From the IMG/VR virus record IMGVR_UViG_3300041411_000178, positions 1 to 64,000 of that record: a stretch of 64,000 nt of DNA; one strand, written 5' to 3'. Shown here piece by piece: positions 37,477 through 49,401 of this stretch. Numbering within the stretch: position 1 is the stretch's first letter; each line of letters begins with the position of its first letter. A program made the position numbers and the translations under genes. The DNA comes from a virus. The notes below the pieces were generated by a model. It saw only the letters and a list, made by a program, of their open reading frames with translations, was not told the origin of the DNA and searched no databases.

Positions 37477-40400
37477 ATGGACACAACTGAATCTGACAAT
37501 ACATCAGCCGAAGCACGGCTAAAGTTTGCAAAAGAGTTAGTGGAGTATTTGGGTGCTCAGAATCTGCCACCTGAGCTGATCGACGATCGCAAGAACCGGG
37601 TGGATTGGGAAAAGCGTACCGAAGACGAATTGGTCATGGCTCACTTCAATGAAGACAGCCTGAGCAAGATCAAGACCGTTCGTTTCCTTAAGGACTTTCC
37701 TCGTTACCAGGCGGCCGCTGACCGCACTACCAAGAACACCAGCTTTATCCGGACGGCAGAGATCTTCCGGCAGCAGGGGATCAAGAACTACTTCTTCCTG
37801 CTGCAACTGAACAACCCGGCTTTGATCGGGGTGGACCCGTACGACGAGAACTTGACCAACGAACAGAAGGTCATGGTCATGCACGAATGTGAGACCAACT
37901 TCTGGTATTTCCTTCGTGAGGTTTGTAAGCTGCGCGCTGATCGTCAGTTCTTGGCTAACCGGGGTAACATCAGTTTCATCTGGAACTACCTGAACCACAT
38001 CACCCAGTACATGATCATGCCTCGTCAACAAGGCAAGTACCAGGACGATAACGATAAGGTTCGTAAAGCAGACGGGACCTGGGTGCGTATCGGTGATCTG
38101 CAAGCGGGTGATCAAGTCATCGACCGTTACGGTAAAGAGTCCACGGTAATTGGTATCCATGCTCAAGGCATTAAGCGCTTGTACCGGGTTCACACCAGTG
38201 ACGGTCGTTATGTCAGCGCAGGACCTGAGCACCTCTGGACATTGGCAGATCATAGCCGTACTGTAAATGACGATCCAGTCTGGGACGATTACACTACCGC
38301 AGAAATGATCACCAAGCTCAAGGATGATGTAAAGCTCGAACTCCCGTTGATCGAAGCGGAGAAGGGCGTCAAGCAGAACCTGGCAATTGACCCTTATGTG
38401 ATGGGCACACTTATTGGGGGTCAACGCATTGGTGGTTTCATCCTCATTAAGAAAGTCTCTGAGTCTGCCGATGCCTGGATTGAAGAGAACCTGCCTGAAA
38501 GCCTGGAGCTGGTGAAGAAGGGCAATCGTCGCGAGATCCATTCAACCGACGAGAATGTCAAGATCAGCTTCGATCCGGACATGGGTCTGCCGGCTAACTA
38601 CCTGGAAGGGGCTCTGGAAGATCGTCTGGCCGCGCTGCAAGCGTTTCTCGACCAAGGAGCAATCGGTGAGGAGGGTGTGGTCTACAACACCACCAGCAGG
38701 CTTGTAGGCGGTCACGTTCAGTACCTGGCCCGTAGCTTGGGCGGTACGGCTTCCAAAGCGGGTAGCAAGATTACAGTTACACTGCCGCATTCGATGGCAC
38801 TGTTCAAGTACAAGCATGTTGAGGAAGAGTTCGTTTTCCCTAACCGTTTGTTTGTAGAGCGCATCGAGTATCATGGTGAAGCACCGTGCACCTGCATTGA
38901 GGTGGATAACGAAGATCACCTTTATGTCACCGACGACTTCCTGGTCACGCACAACACGGTCTCCGTGCAAGTGATTGCGTTCTGGTTGACGTACATCATG
39001 GGGCGTGGCTACAAGTCTCACCTGGTAACCCTGAAGTCGGATAACCGTGCTCAGTTCATTGACGCGATCAAGAAGATCCGGACATGTCTGCCGAAGTACC
39101 TGGTTAACCCAACCTGGAAGGACAAGGACGCGGGTAACTACCTGACGTATAAAGCGTTTGGGGAGGAGCACGTTAACACCCTAACCATCTCAGTACCCCA
39201 GATGGGTGAAGACGCCGCAGGCGACCTTGGACGGGGTCTCACGGTAGGTACCACGAACTACGACGAGCCAGGTTACATCAACTGGATCGAGGCGATCATC
39301 AACGGATGCTCTCCTTCTGCTTTGACAGAGATGGAGATTTGTCGTGACAGCGGTATTCCTTACGGGATCAGTTACATCACGACACCGAACACGACCCTGC
39401 ACCCAAGTGGCGCATTCATGTTTGAGAAACTGATGACGTCGACGGAGTGGCGTGAGAAGTTCTTCGACTCGTACAGCGAGAGTCACCTGAAGATGCGCTT
39501 GTTGAAGGCGTCTCCTCGTAAGACCACCTCGCCGTCTGTGGCCCTTGTGTATAACTACCTGCAACTGGGTAAAGACAAGGCCTGGGTACGCGAGACGATC
39601 GACAGCCTGAACCTCAGCCTTGCTAAGGCCAAGATCGACTTGCTCCTCATGTGGGTTGAAGACGGTGAGAACCGTGTGTTCGATGACATCACTCGTGAAG
39701 CGATTAACAACGTGAAGCGGGATAAGGTCTGGAGTAAGGAGTATCGTGACAGTGGTCTGTTTATCGACTTCTTTGTCACGCAGCAAGAACTGCTGGAGAT
39801 GGCGAAGAAGAGTTATAATGACTTCTTCCTCATTGGGGTGGATACCTCGTCGGCTATCAACAAGGATGCTTGTACGCTGATTATCCGCAGTATGAAGACT
39901 GGTAAGGTCATTGGGGTGGGTCGTTATCAGTTGGCATTCTTGGACGACGTGACGGGCATTATCGTCGACATGTTGGCCACTTTGGAAAACAGCCTGCTGG
40001 TGATTGAGCGTAACTATGCTCACCACATGATCGACAACCTGCTGGTTATGCTGCCGGCCAAGGGGATGGACCCATTCACTCGCATCTACAACACGGTCTT
40101 CCAAGATCCTGTTAACCATGCGAAGGAATACGAGGCAGTGCAGCACACCAAGTTTGCCCACCGCAGTAAGAGTTTCTACCTGAAGTACAAGCAGTTCTTC
40201 GGGTTCATCACGACCTCTACTTCACGTCAAGTGTTGTATGGCCTGATTCAGGAAGCTGTGGGTAACACAGGGTATGGCCTGCACTATGATCGGCTTGCTG
40301 ATGAGTTGATCAACCTCAAGACCCGAGGCGACCGGATTGACCACGATAGCAAACAGCACGATGACTTGGTTATCGCCTGGCTGCTGACGTACTGGTTCAT

Positions 40401-40740
40401 TAAGCTGGGTATGAACAAACCGATGTACGGAATCCCGACTGGGATTGCCCTCACGGAAACTCGTAACCTGCTCGATGCCGGTAAGCAGAAGAATGCTCCT
40501 GAAGTTGACCCAAGTGTTGTTTCGTTCTTGGACAACATCAAGAAACGTGTACAGAAGTTGACGGACGAGTTGTTGAACACCAACGACAATATCCTCGCCA
40601 TGAGGTTGGAGGCTGAGATCAACAAGCTCAGCAGACTGCTCCCACCTGAAACGGCTAAACTCCTGACCGTGGATACCTTGATCGAGGAGGCTAAGCTCGA
40701 AAGGGCTAAGCGTATCTTGAGAGAACGTAAGCGCGCATAA
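37477..40740 (+). CDS. terL: Large terminase subunit (packaging ATPase/nuclease) interrupted by an intein
   Basis: A 1087-aa precursor; removing the predicted intein (residues 188-493) leaves 781 aa, a normal size for phiKZ-type terminases. The extein Walker A is formed only after splicing: MPRQQGK (ending at K187) joins TVSV (from T494), giving RQQGKT as in T4 gp17 (SRQLGKT). A nuclease-type region with IGVDTSSA lies near residue 790. The protein powers DNA packaging into the prohead and cuts the concatemer. It stands alone between two terminators. Because the intein splits the P-loop, unspliced protein should be unable to hydrolyse ATP. Confidence 0.85.
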   Translation: MDTTESDNTSAEARLKFAKELVEYLGAQNLPPELIDDRKNRVDWEKRTEDELVMAHFNEDSLSKIKTVRFLKDFPRYQAAADRTTKNTSFIRTAEIFRQQGIKNYFFLLQLNNPALIGVDPYDENLTNEQKVMVMHECETNFWYFLREVCKLRADRQFLANRGNISFIWNYLNHITQYMIMPRQQGKYQDDNDKVRKADGTWVRIGDLQAGDQVIDRYGKESTVIGIHAQGIKRLYRVHTSDGRYVSAGPEHLWTLADHSRTVNDDPVWDDYTTAEMITKLKDDVKLELPLIEAEKGVKQNLAIDPYVMGTLIGGQRIGGFILIKKVSESADAWIEENLPESLELVKKGNRREIHSTDENVKISFDPDMGLPANYLEGALEDRLAALQAFLDQGAIGEEGVVYNTTSRLVGGHVQYLARSLGGTASKAGSKITVTLPHSMALFKYKHVEEEFVFPNRLFVERIEYHGEAPCTCIEVDNEDHLYVTDDFLVTHNTVSVQVIAFWLTYIMGRGYKSHLVTLKSDNRAQFIDAIKKIRTCLPKYLVNPTWKDKDAGNYLTYKAFGEEHVNTLTISVPQMGEDAAGDLGRGLTVGTTNYDEPGYINWIEAIINGCSPSALTEMEICRDSGIPYGISYITTPNTTLHPSGAFMFEKLMTSTEWREKFFDSYSESHLKMRLLKASPRKTTSPSVALVYNYLQLGKDKAWVRETIDSLNLSLAKAKIDLLLMWVEDGENRVFDDITREAINNVKRDKVWSKEYRDSGLFIDFFVTQQELLEMAKKSYNDFFLIGVDTSSAINKDACTLIIRSMKTGKVIGVGRYQLAFLDDVTGIIVDMLATLENSLLVIERNYAHHMIDNLLVMLPAKGMDPFTRIYNTVFQDPVNHAKEYEAVQHTKFAHRSKSFYLKYKQFFGFITTSTSRQVLYGLIQEAVGNTGYGLHYDRLADELINLKTRGDRIDHDSKQHDDLVIAWLLTYWFIKLGMNKPMYGIPTGIALTETRNLLDAGKQKNAPEVDPSVVSFLDNIKKRVQKLTDELLNTNDNILAMRLEAEINKLSRLLPPETAKLLTVDTLIEEAKLERAKRILRERKRA
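38038..38955 (+). other. Class 3-type intein with degenerate LAGLIDADG-like domain, inside the terminase
   Basis: The intein spans residues 188-493 (306 aa). Its C-terminus is VTHN followed by T494, the standard penultimate His, terminal Asn and Thr +1. The first residue is Y188, not Cys/Ser/Ala. Block B reads GPEHLWTL (H252, W254), block F CIEVDNEDHLYV with C473, and block G T491-H492-N493. Trp in block B, Cys in block F and Thr in block G form the WCT signature of class 3 inteins, in which the block F Cys replaces the missing residue-1 nucleophile. The central part has remnants of a LAGLIDADG endonuclease: VMGTLIGGQRIGG (acidic residue lost) and RLAALQAFLDQGAIG. So splicing is probably active and homing probably lost. 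Confidence 0.75.
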
Positions 40741-45298: not shown

Positions 45299-45841
45299 AT
45301 GACAACGATTTGCTGGGATGGGAAGAAACTTGTCAGTGATTCACAGGTGACAGCCGGCATGCAGATCTCACCTGGGGGACTGCGGAAGATCTACACCCCT
45401 GAAGAAGGTGAGTATTGGGATGTGAACGGCCATCGTGTTTTGGCTGCTGGCATTTCGGGGGACGGTAAGTCGATTGAATACGTCAGGGAACACCTGCGAG
45501 TTGGTGTGACCTACAAAACGAGAATTGAGGATGTAGACGAACTCAACTTCTCTGCACTGCTGATCGCTGAAGACGGCAATTGCTATCGCTGGGGAATGAC
45601 TAAGCGTCAGGGTCGTCCTCTGATGACAGACATCGTACCACTGCTGCCTCCTACTGCCGTAGGTTCTGGGCAAACCTTTGCACTGGCAGTGATGTCGATT
45701 GGCAAACCCGCAGAAGCCGCTGTACGCGCCGCTATCCGTCACGACAAGTGGTCCGGTGGCGATCTGCAAATCTGGGAAGTCCCACCTAAACCCGCCACCA
45801 AGTCCGTTCGACCAGTGGTTACCGAACCTACACCCGCTTGA
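45299..45841 (+). CDS. Proteasome/HslV-like Ntn hydrolase, copy 1, 180 aa
   Basis: The start MTTICWDGKKLVSDSQ matches the N-terminus of HslV and proteasome beta subunits after Met removal. The N-terminal Thr2 (nucleophile), D14 and K30 (RKIY) correspond to the T1/D17/K33 catalytic set, and GSGQTFALAVMSIG matches the GSG-containing strand. Size fits HslV (about 175 aa) plus a Pro-rich tail. No HslU-type unfoldase is in the window. The next gene is a clear paralogue. The early-type promoter suggests a role soon after infection, such as degrading or modifying host proteins; the substrate is unknown. Confidence 0.65.
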   Translation: MTTICWDGKKLVSDSQVTAGMQISPGGLRKIYTPEEGEYWDVNGHRVLAAGISGDGKSIEYVREHLRVGVTYKTRIEDVDELNFSALLIAEDGNCYRWGMTKRQGRPLMTDIVPLLPPTAVGSGQTFALAVMSIGKPAEAAVRAAIRHDKWSGGDLQIWEVPPKPATKSVRPVVTEPTPA

Positions 45842-45856
45842 TCAGGAAAACACATC

Positions 45857-46468
45857 ATGTCAACAGCCGCATTCGACGGTAAACTTCTGGTCACTGACTC
45901 GGCCATCCACACCGGCGGGCAAATCAGCCCCAGTGAGTTCCGCAAGATCTATACACCAGAAGAAAATGAGTACTGGGAGATCTGCGGTGTTAAAGCAATC
46001 GCATTTGCTCTGATCGGTACTCCCATTGTCTACCCGCAGTTCCGCAAGATATTGCAGGACGGCATGGATCACAGTTCTGACGCAACGGTATTTGACGGTA
46101 CATTCGAAGCCATTGTGGTGGGTGAAAACGGCGCCGGGTACCAGATCATCTTGTCGGAATCCAACAAGGAAGGCAAGAAGCAAATACTGCAAATCGTTCC
46201 AGGTACCGGATTCCTTGCCGTTGGGGACGGCGATCAATTCGCGTTGGCTGTAATGTCTGTCGGTAAGTCTGCTCGTGTGGGTGTCAAGGCGGCGATCAAC
46301 CTGTGCATTGAGAGCGGGGGCAATCTCCAGGTATTCGAAGTACCACCGCCACCTGAGACACCTTCTGTGCGTCCTAAGAAGGGGTACCCAACAACCGAAG
46401 AGTCGCTGGCCCAGCTTCGGGAATTGGTCAAGGAAGAAGAGCGTCAGGAAGCCAAAGCCAAGGCGTAA
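45857..46468 (+). CDS. Proteasome/HslV-like Ntn hydrolase, copy 2, 203 aa
   Basis: A paralogue of the preceding gene: DGKLLVTDS, QISP, RKIYTPEE.EYW, FALAVMS.GK and GGNLQ..EVPPPP are shared in order. Here Met is followed by Ser-Thr, so Met removal exposes Ser2, an alternative Ntn nucleophile; D14 and K30 are kept. A C-terminal charged helix of about 25 residues (EESLAQLRELVKEEERQEAK) is absent from copy 1. The pair may form a mixed ring with active and weak subunits. The 15-nt spacing shows cotranscription. Confidence 0.65.
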   Translation: MSTAAFDGKLLVTDSAIHTGGQISPSEFRKIYTPEENEYWEICGVKAIAFALIGTPIVYPQFRKILQDGMDHSSDATVFDGTFEAIVVGENGAGYQIILSESNKEGKKQILQIVPGTGFLAVGDGDQFALAVMSVGKSARVGVKAAINLCIESGGNLQVFEVPPPPETPSVRPKKGYPTTEESLAQLRELVKEEERQEAKAKA

Positions 46469-46477
46469 TTTTCTATG

Positions 46478-46645
46478 CTATGTGAACTCGTGAGTTTGCT
46501 CCTGCTTGAAGATAGTTAGCCCTGGCGTACCCGCGGGAATAGTTTGGAGTCCCCTACCCGCAACAGTTGGTTGTCCCCCATTAACGACCGGCTGTCCTGA
46601 CAAGTTATCGTTGGGAAAAGCTCCACCTGCCAAAGATATTTCCAT
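46478..46645 (-). CDS. Possible small Gly/Pro-rich protein, 55 aa
   Basis: A minus-strand ATG at 46645 lies 10 nt after a full AGGAGG (complement of 46656-46661), inside a longer open frame starting at 46696. The product MEISLAGGAFPNDNLSGQPV... is Gly/Pro/Asn-rich like small virion proteins. It overlaps no other gene and is convergent with the Ntn hydrolase pair. No homologue recognised; it could be chance. Confidence 0.35.
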   Translation of the reverse strand: MEISLAGGAFPNDNLSGQPVVNGGQPTVAGRGLQTIPAGTPGLTIFKQEQTHEFT

Positions 46646-48162: not shown

Positions 48163-48459
48163 GTGTCTAGAAGCTTCTCTCTGGATTTAAAATCCTATAC
48201 CCTGGACGTACCAGTGGGTGGCGATCAAAGTTGCTTAAATCGTGCTGTATCCACGATGGATCTCCATTCCATACTCGTCGATGAGGGGTTTAATTCATTC
48301 GAATGCTCCAGAGCCTATCACCGGATCTGGGGAAATGACATTAACGCGTTACGGGATCAGGTAGCTAACAAGTTGTTGGGGGTACCTAGAGACGCTGTGG
48401 TTAAAATGCAGACTTTCGGTAAACTTCGTCAGCATGTATTGGTTACGCTGAAATACTAA
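48163..48459 (+). CDS. Unknown protein, 98 aa
   Basis: The GTG at 48163 is preferred because AAAGGGGT (48148-48155) lies at good distance; an in-frame ATG at 48130 lacks a ribosome site. The product begins MSRSFSLDLKSYTLDV; no motif recognised. It starts a run of tightly packed small genes up to the DNA polymerase gene, and codon use is less biased than in phuZ. Confidence 0.55.
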   Translation: MSRSFSLDLKSYTLDVPVGGDQSCLNRAVSTMDLHSILVDEGFNSFECSRAYHRIWGNDINALRDQVANKLLGVPRDAVVKMQTFGKLRQHVLVTLKY

Positions 48460-48470
48460 AGGGGCCAGCA

Positions 48471-49022
48471 GTGATCAGATTCGATGTCCTAAACTTAGGC
48501 AATAGCTTAGTAATGGAAAAGGACGACGCTCCCGCTGTCAGGGAGTCAATTGCTGTACGAATGCTTGAAGCCGTAGTAGAGATGATCAATCATCCAGCAC
48601 GGCAGGATAAACTTCTGGATCAACTGGGGAACGTTTACGAAGAACATTACGACATGCTGACACCAGATCTCGTGATGCTCAAAATCAGAGATCAGCTGCA
48701 AAAAGAAACAAAGCGTCGGTCATGGGATTCACGCCTTAAGCTGAAGGTTAGCTTTAAGAAAATTTCACACGGCTTCCACCAAGCTCATATTGAGATGGAT
48801 CTGGATGCTACGTTGAAAGCAAACGTCAAACCCAAGGTTACCCGTGTTAAGCGTGAGAAGGTAACCGGCGAAACCATCAGCGATAATCCAAGTCCGGAGG
48901 CGATCAATGAATTCCTTGAAACTGTTGAGCGTCGGAGTATTCGGCGAACTCCGCGGCTTTCAGATCGACAACCGACAGCTGTTAGAGAACCTTTTGAGCG
49001 AGATCTCTTCGCTCAGCAATGA
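48471..49022 (+). CDS. Unknown protein, 183 aa
   Basis: A GTG start at 48471 follows AAAGGGGCC. The product begins MIRFDVLNLGNSLVM and has a long basic, disordered C-terminus (KPKVTRVKREKVTG ... RRSIRRTPRLSDR) that might bind nucleic acid. No domain recognised. Its last 116 bp overlap the next gene in another frame. Confidence 0.6.
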   Translation: MIRFDVLNLGNSLVMEKDDAPAVRESIAVRMLEAVVEMINHPARQDKLLDQLGNVYEEHYDMLTPDLVMLKIRDQLQKETKRRSWDSRLKLKVSFKKISHGFHQAHIEMDLDATLKANVKPKVTRVKREKVTGETISDNPSPEAINEFLETVERRSIRRTPRLSDRQPTAVREPFERDLFAQQ

Positions 49023-49401
49023 TTACGTGCCCCATCTTTATAAGGAAATGGCTTGGGGTGTACTCGAGATGGGTATCCAGCAACTCATGTTCCTCAAGGG
49101 CAAGAATCTTTACGACTGTCGCTACAATCAGAAGGCCGCACGTTGTTACCTGTATGAAGACCACCTGGAAGTTGAACTGGACAAGATCATGTCCCACATC
49201 ACCAGCCAGATGGGTAACGCAACCAATAAAACGTCACCGGATCATCCTTTTGTATACCAGATCCTAGCAAACGGCGATTTGTTGGTGTACATGGACGTCA
49301 GAGACTATGAACCCTTGGTAACTGACACCATTGAAGAGGAGTGCGGTGATGAGCAAGACATTTGGCTTGGCCCTGGGCTGCATTCCGATAGCCTTTGGTA
49401 A
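48907..49401 (+). CDS. Unknown protein, 164 aa, overlapping both neighbours
   Basis: The ATG at 48907 follows CGGAGG (48895-48900). It shares 116 bp with the gene before and 53 bp with the gene after, all in different frames. The product (MNSLKLLSVGVFGELRG...) is helical with no recognised motif. Both ends are supported by good ribosome sites of the overlapping genes. Confidence 0.6.
   Translation: MNSLKLLSVGVFGELRGFQIDNRQLLENLLSEISSLSNDYVPHLYKEMAWGVLEMGIQQLMFLKGKNLYDCRYNQKAARCYLYEDHLEVELDKIMSHITSQMGNATNKTSPDHPFVYQILANGDLLVYMDVRDYEPLVTDTIEEECGDEQDIWLGPGLHSDSLW

Follow-up and report, generated by a model that had tools for sequence, protein, structure and literature searches.

We find that the 306-aa insert in the terminase large subunit (TerL) of an EL-like jumbo phage is very probably a class 3 (WCT) cis-splicing intein, seated between the lysine and the threonine of the Walker A motif. 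From sequence comparison and structural modelling, we put the probability of this reading at roughly 0.93. The stretch of DNA analysed here (the window) comprises 64,000 nucleotides, positions 1 to 64,000 of the IMG/VR virus record IMGVR_UViG_3300041411_000178, which is 224 kb long in all. The TerL precursor gene lies at 37477-40740 on the plus strand and encodes 1087 aa in a single open frame, and the intein occupies positions 38038-38955 of the same strand (Y188-N493). Evidence for the assignment comes from the junction in alleles that lack the insert, from WCT and HN|T residues kept in 34/34 alleles, and from the fold predicted by AlphaFold2. A preliminary description of the window had proposed a class 3-type intein at this place, and both its borders (918 nt, 306 codons, residues 188-493 of one open 1087-codon frame) and the residues concerned (K187|Y188, H252, W254, C473 and T491-H492-N493|T494) proved exact. 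To that description our analysis adds the degenerate endonuclease domain, two further class 3 inteins in the genome and the matching TerL intein of phage EL gp11.

Host gene and borders of the insert

The product of the interrupted gene matches the PHROG family phrog_2, terminase large subunit (E=1.9e-40), and shares 64.5% identity (over 99%) with the annotated terminase large subunit of Pseudomonas phage EL, gp11. Judged by these similarities, and by a Walker A motif PRQQGK|T that is contiguous in intein-less orthologues, the host gene is TerL of an EL-like jumbo phage. At the DNA level, megablast against the phage collection returned one relative, Pseudomonas phage phiRU (23% of the query, 73.9% identity). 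The TerL gene is called 'ATP-dependent DNA helicase' in the original phage EL record and in others, and RefSeq uses 'DarB-like antirestriction' for six intein-containing TerL proteins (L004, L008, L013, L014, L015 and L056); both names look like annotation errors.

The insert separates K187 from T494 of the Walker A motif. For comparison we used four intein-less relatives: Vibrio VP4B, Vibrio pTD1, Erwinia AH04 and Kosakonia Kc263. When residues 1-187 are joined to residues 494-1087, the resulting protein is 52-53% identical to all four and the junction is gap-free, with MPRQQGKTVSVQ aligned to LPRQQGKTVTAQ or MPRQSGKTVGMQ. Exactly 306 residues have to be removed for PRQQGKTVSVQ to align with PRQxGKTVxxQ of the four empty alleles with zero gaps. 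The N-extein (37477-38037, plus strand, residues 1-187) ends with PRQQGK of the Walker A motif, whose last residue is directly followed in the four relatives by the equivalent of T494; the C-extein (38956-40740, plus strand, residues 494-1087) begins with this Walker A Thr, the +1 residue, which is a Thr in all 34 intein and all 4 empty alleles. The preliminary description had named an N-junction at a Cys or Ser elsewhere as a finding that would speak against it. Because the four insert-less relatives align gap-free across the junction, the N-junction is not misplaced, and the first intein residue is Tyr188.

Class 3 signature and predicted fold

Class 3 inteins are defined by a missing nucleophile at residue 1 (PMC5050341, PMC7891396) together with Trp at B:12, Cys at F:4 and Thr at G:5 (PMC3196547, PMC5050341, PMC7891396). 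Our allele set consisted of 38 more sequences interrupted at the TerL site, taken from Pseudomonas, Erwinia, Shewanella, Klebsiella, Vibrio, Photobacterium and Aeromonas phages and from IMG/VR contigs, which with the window gave 34 distinct inteins. The N-terminal half of the Hint (splicing) domain (38038-38346, plus strand, intein residues 1-103) holds blocks A and B, with His B:10 (H252, 38230-38232) and Trp B:12 (W254, 38236-38238). Blocks F and G lie in the C-terminal half (38815-38955, plus strand), with Cys F:4 (C473, 38893-38895) and, at 38947-38955, T491 (G:5), H492 and N493. All of these residues, and Thr+1, are invariant in 34/34 alleles. With a mean splicing-domain identity of 48%, just 19 of the 306 columns are invariant, and W254, C473, T491, H252, H492 and N493 are among them; as judged from the alignment, the invariance of the signature residues exceeds chance.

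Residue 1 behaves in the opposite way, ranking 256th of the 306 columns in conservation. Ten residue types were found there in the 34 alleles, namely Tyr (11), Met (6), Leu, Glu, Ala and Phe (3 each), Pro (2), Gln, Asn and Asp, and Cys, Ser or Thr in none (0/34). The preliminary description had considered a first-residue Tyr unusual even for class 3, but against this spread it is not exceptional, and splicing has been published for class 3 inteins with a non-nucleophilic residue 1 (PMC3196547, PMC5222942, PMC7891396). Beside the catalytic Cys lies a CxC motif, C471-T-C473 (38887-38895), whose C471 stands outside the class 3 signature; the motif could be redox-active.

AlphaFold2 modelled the intein from 22 sequences with pLDDT 90.6 and pTM 0.89, and the predicted fold combines a Hint with a LAGLIDADG domain. 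Foldseek of this model against the PDB returned PI-SceI (1ef0), TliVMA (7qsu) and the class 3 DnaB inteins 6bs8, 6rix and 6riy. A single-sequence PDB search also gave class 3 DnaB inteins as best matches (6rix, 6riy and 6bs8), which is suggestive of membership of the class 3 clade. A profile of the family matches class 3 DnaB structures in both splicing halves and places W254, C473 and T491 on the W, C and T of the solved inteins; the top match of the profile is 6riz, a gp41-1 intein into which WCT was engineered. In intein numbering, His65 and Trp67 are the same in the window's intein and in MchDnaB1 (PMC7664689). With every sequence mark of the class present and the Hint and LAGLIDADG domains predicted, the class 3 reading is supported. 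Pfam and NCBIfam scans of the intein were weak (Hom_end_hint E=0.022-0.15, intein_Cterm E=0.88), so that those libraries alone are insufficient to decide its identity. PHROG matches of the intein to 'primase', 'helicase loader' and other terminases were rejected as extein homology and most likely reflect inteins within those family models.

Loss of the endonuclease acids and mode of inheritance

Between the splicing halves lies a degenerate LAGLIDADG homing-endonuclease domain (38347-38814, plus strand, residues 291-446, borders approximate), which the family profile matches to PI-SceI at E of about 4e-7. Block C reads GGQ (residues 314-316) and block E reads DQG (residues 392-394), so both catalytic Asp are absent: G315 and G394 stand where the alleles of Klebsiella Miami and N1M2 and of Aeromonas PS1 keep one Asp per LAGLIDADG motif (GDG...DTDG). 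At least one catalytic Asp is missing in 31/34 alleles. The shortest allele (L035:4553-5368, 272 aa) has deletions in the endonuclease domain and looks like an intermediate on the way to a mini-intein.

With both catalytic acids gone, the TerL intein is probably a fixed copy that no longer homes and is inherited with its gene. Extein and intein distances are strongly correlated (Mantel r=0.90 for the splicing domain and 0.85 for the endonuclease domain, p<0.001), as expected for mostly vertical inheritance. Presence is nevertheless polymorphic within the genus Tidunavirus, where phiKT1028 carries the TerL intein and VP4B and pTD1 do not.

Further inteins and the question of regulation

Searching the 224-kb record with the TerL intein revealed two further class 3 inteins outside the window, both with WCT, with Ala as residue 1 and at GK|T of helicase P-loops. 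The first of them (about 74093-74827, plus strand, 252 aa; loci L045, L046 and L048) interrupts GGGK|T of a phrog_16 helicase and has a shortened endonuclease domain; its sequence marks are NAPTGGGK|ALAND...ETTCIAV...VTHN|TYMS. The other (about 206777-207556, minus strand, 268 aa; loci L044, L047 and L049) interrupts GSGK|T of a phrog_62 helicase with a weak SNF2 match, and reads DAAVGSGK|AMPL...ETACISI...VTHN|TLTS. Many related contigs also hold three inteins, and several per genome are often found. Phage EL has four intein places, namely TerL gp11, 45470-46543 and 48344-49063 (within 4 kb), and one at 169.7 kb. In VP4B, whose TerL has no intein, two other genes gave intein matches, and an intein search of the pTD1, AH04 and Kc263 genomes gave no match. 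Class 3 inteins at K|T or K|S of P-loops are found elsewhere in the TerL of Gmala1 and Lactococcus 949, in helicases of Colt and Kwan, and in phiHQ.

With three class 3 inteins at K|T sites of a single genome, and relatives that often carry several, the question arises whether the TerL intein is a domesticated regulator whose splicing, for example redox-sensitive via C473/C471, times the onset of packaging and, together with its two helicase counterparts, of replication. An endonuclease domain that is dead and yet kept under selection (dN/dS 0.19) would fit such a role, as would the CxC motif, found at C471-C473 in about half of the alleles; a mycobacterial DnaB intein investigated alongside class 3 inteins is reported to respond to oxidative stress (PMC6195587). 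Against this, C471 is not conserved, the relatives VP4B and pTD1 manage without a TerL intein, and the intein could persist because its clean loss from an essential P-loop is rare. We regard a regulatory role of splicing in packaging as improbable. Slightly less probable still is the wider proposal that EL-like jumbo phages, having lost homing, keep their three K|T class 3 inteins (TerL and two helicases) as a shared, post-translational and possibly redox-sensitive means of timing replication and packaging.

Constraint on splicing and competing assignments

A second possibility is that the intein is itself a pseudogene, its splicing lost, and that TerL works with the insert in place or is provided in trans. 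Degeneration is already evident in the endonuclease half, a dead class 3 intein has been described (PMC3196547), and a correct WCT set is no guarantee of splicing activity. However, that dead intein lacks Cys F:4 and His B:10, both of which are present here, and the splicing residues are all invariant. In 28 pairs of close relatives dN/dS was 0.083 (N) and 0.065 (C) for the splicing halves against 0.071 and 0.067 for the exteins, and 0.19 for the endonuclease domain against 0.07-0.08 elsewhere, values that are rough since many dS are near saturation. The splicing halves are as constrained as the exteins, which supports active splicing, whereas the endonuclease domain evolves faster, yet not neutrally. 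Moreover, the insert interrupts an essential P-loop between K and T, and a genome search with the intein as sole query turned up no other TerL-like copy of the locus. A dead intein thus appears very unlikely.

A class 2 intein, in which the +1 residue attacks directly and block F supplies no nucleophile, would also have a residue 1 without a nucleophile, but here C473, W254 and T491 are present, their invariant combination is the published discriminator of class 3 (PMC3196547, PMC7664689), and class 2 has been reported solely from KlbA genes (PMC3196547), leaving this assignment with a very small chance. A class 1 intein with a misplaced N-junction, the commonest class a priori, is refuted by the four empty alleles, by the Tyr at residue 1 where class 1 has Cys, Ser or Thr, by the lack of any of these three in residues 188-200, and by C473 and T491, which are class 3 marks.

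Proposed route of splicing

For a cis-splicing class 3 intein, the pathway established in other members (PMC5222942, PMC7664689) can be mapped by analogy onto the TerL precursor. Cys473, with His252, would attack the K187-Y188 bond and form the block F branched thioester; the N-extein would then be transferred to Thr494, and Asn493 would cyclise, aided by His492. A final O-to-N acyl shift would join K187 to T494 and so yield a working P-loop in ligated TerL (predicted mass 89.9 kDa) and the free intein (34.2 kDa) from a precursor of 124.1 kDa. Trp254 and Thr491 would hold the active site, so that residue 1 would have no catalytic role and would drift. Our search of the accessible literature found no published splicing experiment on this TerL.

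The preliminary description had gone on to say that splicing would directly switch on the packaging ATPase. This holds in a trivial sense, as the P-loop of the precursor is split, with its Lys and Thr 306 residues apart, and the precursor should therefore not hydrolyse ATP; Kelley et al. argue for the same ATPase-off precursor in mycobacteriophage TerL (PMC5050341). For regulated splicing, nothing in our analysis shows it. Because the AlphaFold2 model of the full precursor was poor (pLDDT 53), no structural claim on the ATPase rests on it.

Relation to known inteins

The closest counterpart is gp11 of phage EL (NC_007623.1, YP_418044.1), which shares the GK|T site in TerL, the class 3 residues and a degenerate LAGLIDADG domain. 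It differs in having Gln rather than Tyr as residue 1 and a length of 313 aa against 306, and the two inteins are 45% identical. The GenBank annotation of phage EL TerL names no intein, and no papers on the phage EL intein were found in the open literature searched; the inteins of this phage, gp11 included, are presumably listed in the InBase registry.

Among mycobacteriophages, the TerL1-a inteins occupy a 'classic' site between the invariant P-loop Lys and Thr, like the insertion described here, and TerL1-c, -d and -e are class 3 with the WCT triplet; splicing has been shown for five terminase inteins in MBP-intein-GFP reporters (PMC5050341). These elements belong to another terminase family and other hosts, and some of their endonucleases are active (BAKA TerL1-b, Bethlehem TerL1-c; PMC5050341), unlike the degenerate one of the TerL intein here. 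Mycobacterial DnaB class 3 mini-inteins (MchDnaB1, 6rix/6riy; M. smegmatis, 6bs8) share the Hint fold and align with ours at the His and Trp of block B, at the Cys of block F and at the terminal THN, but they have no endonuclease domain and reside in DnaB. PI-SceI and archaeal VMA inteins (1ef0, 7qsu) have the same overall Hint plus LAGLIDADG architecture but are class 1 (Cys1), and PI-SceI is an active homing endonuclease. In a compilation of 1701 class 3 inteins, 82.5% had LAGLIDADG motifs (PMC7891396).

Since mycobacteriophage TerL has been described both with inserts at K|T and with inteins of class 3, the type of element is already known, and the TerL intein is a correct finding that is ordinary for the field. 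What it adds is a residue 1 that takes ten types, an endonuclease without its catalytic acids, and a single genome in which three motors each carry a K|T intein. The alleles form a large, natural and well-aligned class 3 set at one site, in which residue 1 is free and the WCT, His and Asn set is fixed, and among related jumbo phages the intein ranges from active-looking through degenerate to absent. With the P-loop K|T site used in three motors, the choice between a selfish passenger and a regulator becomes testable in the culturable phage EL.
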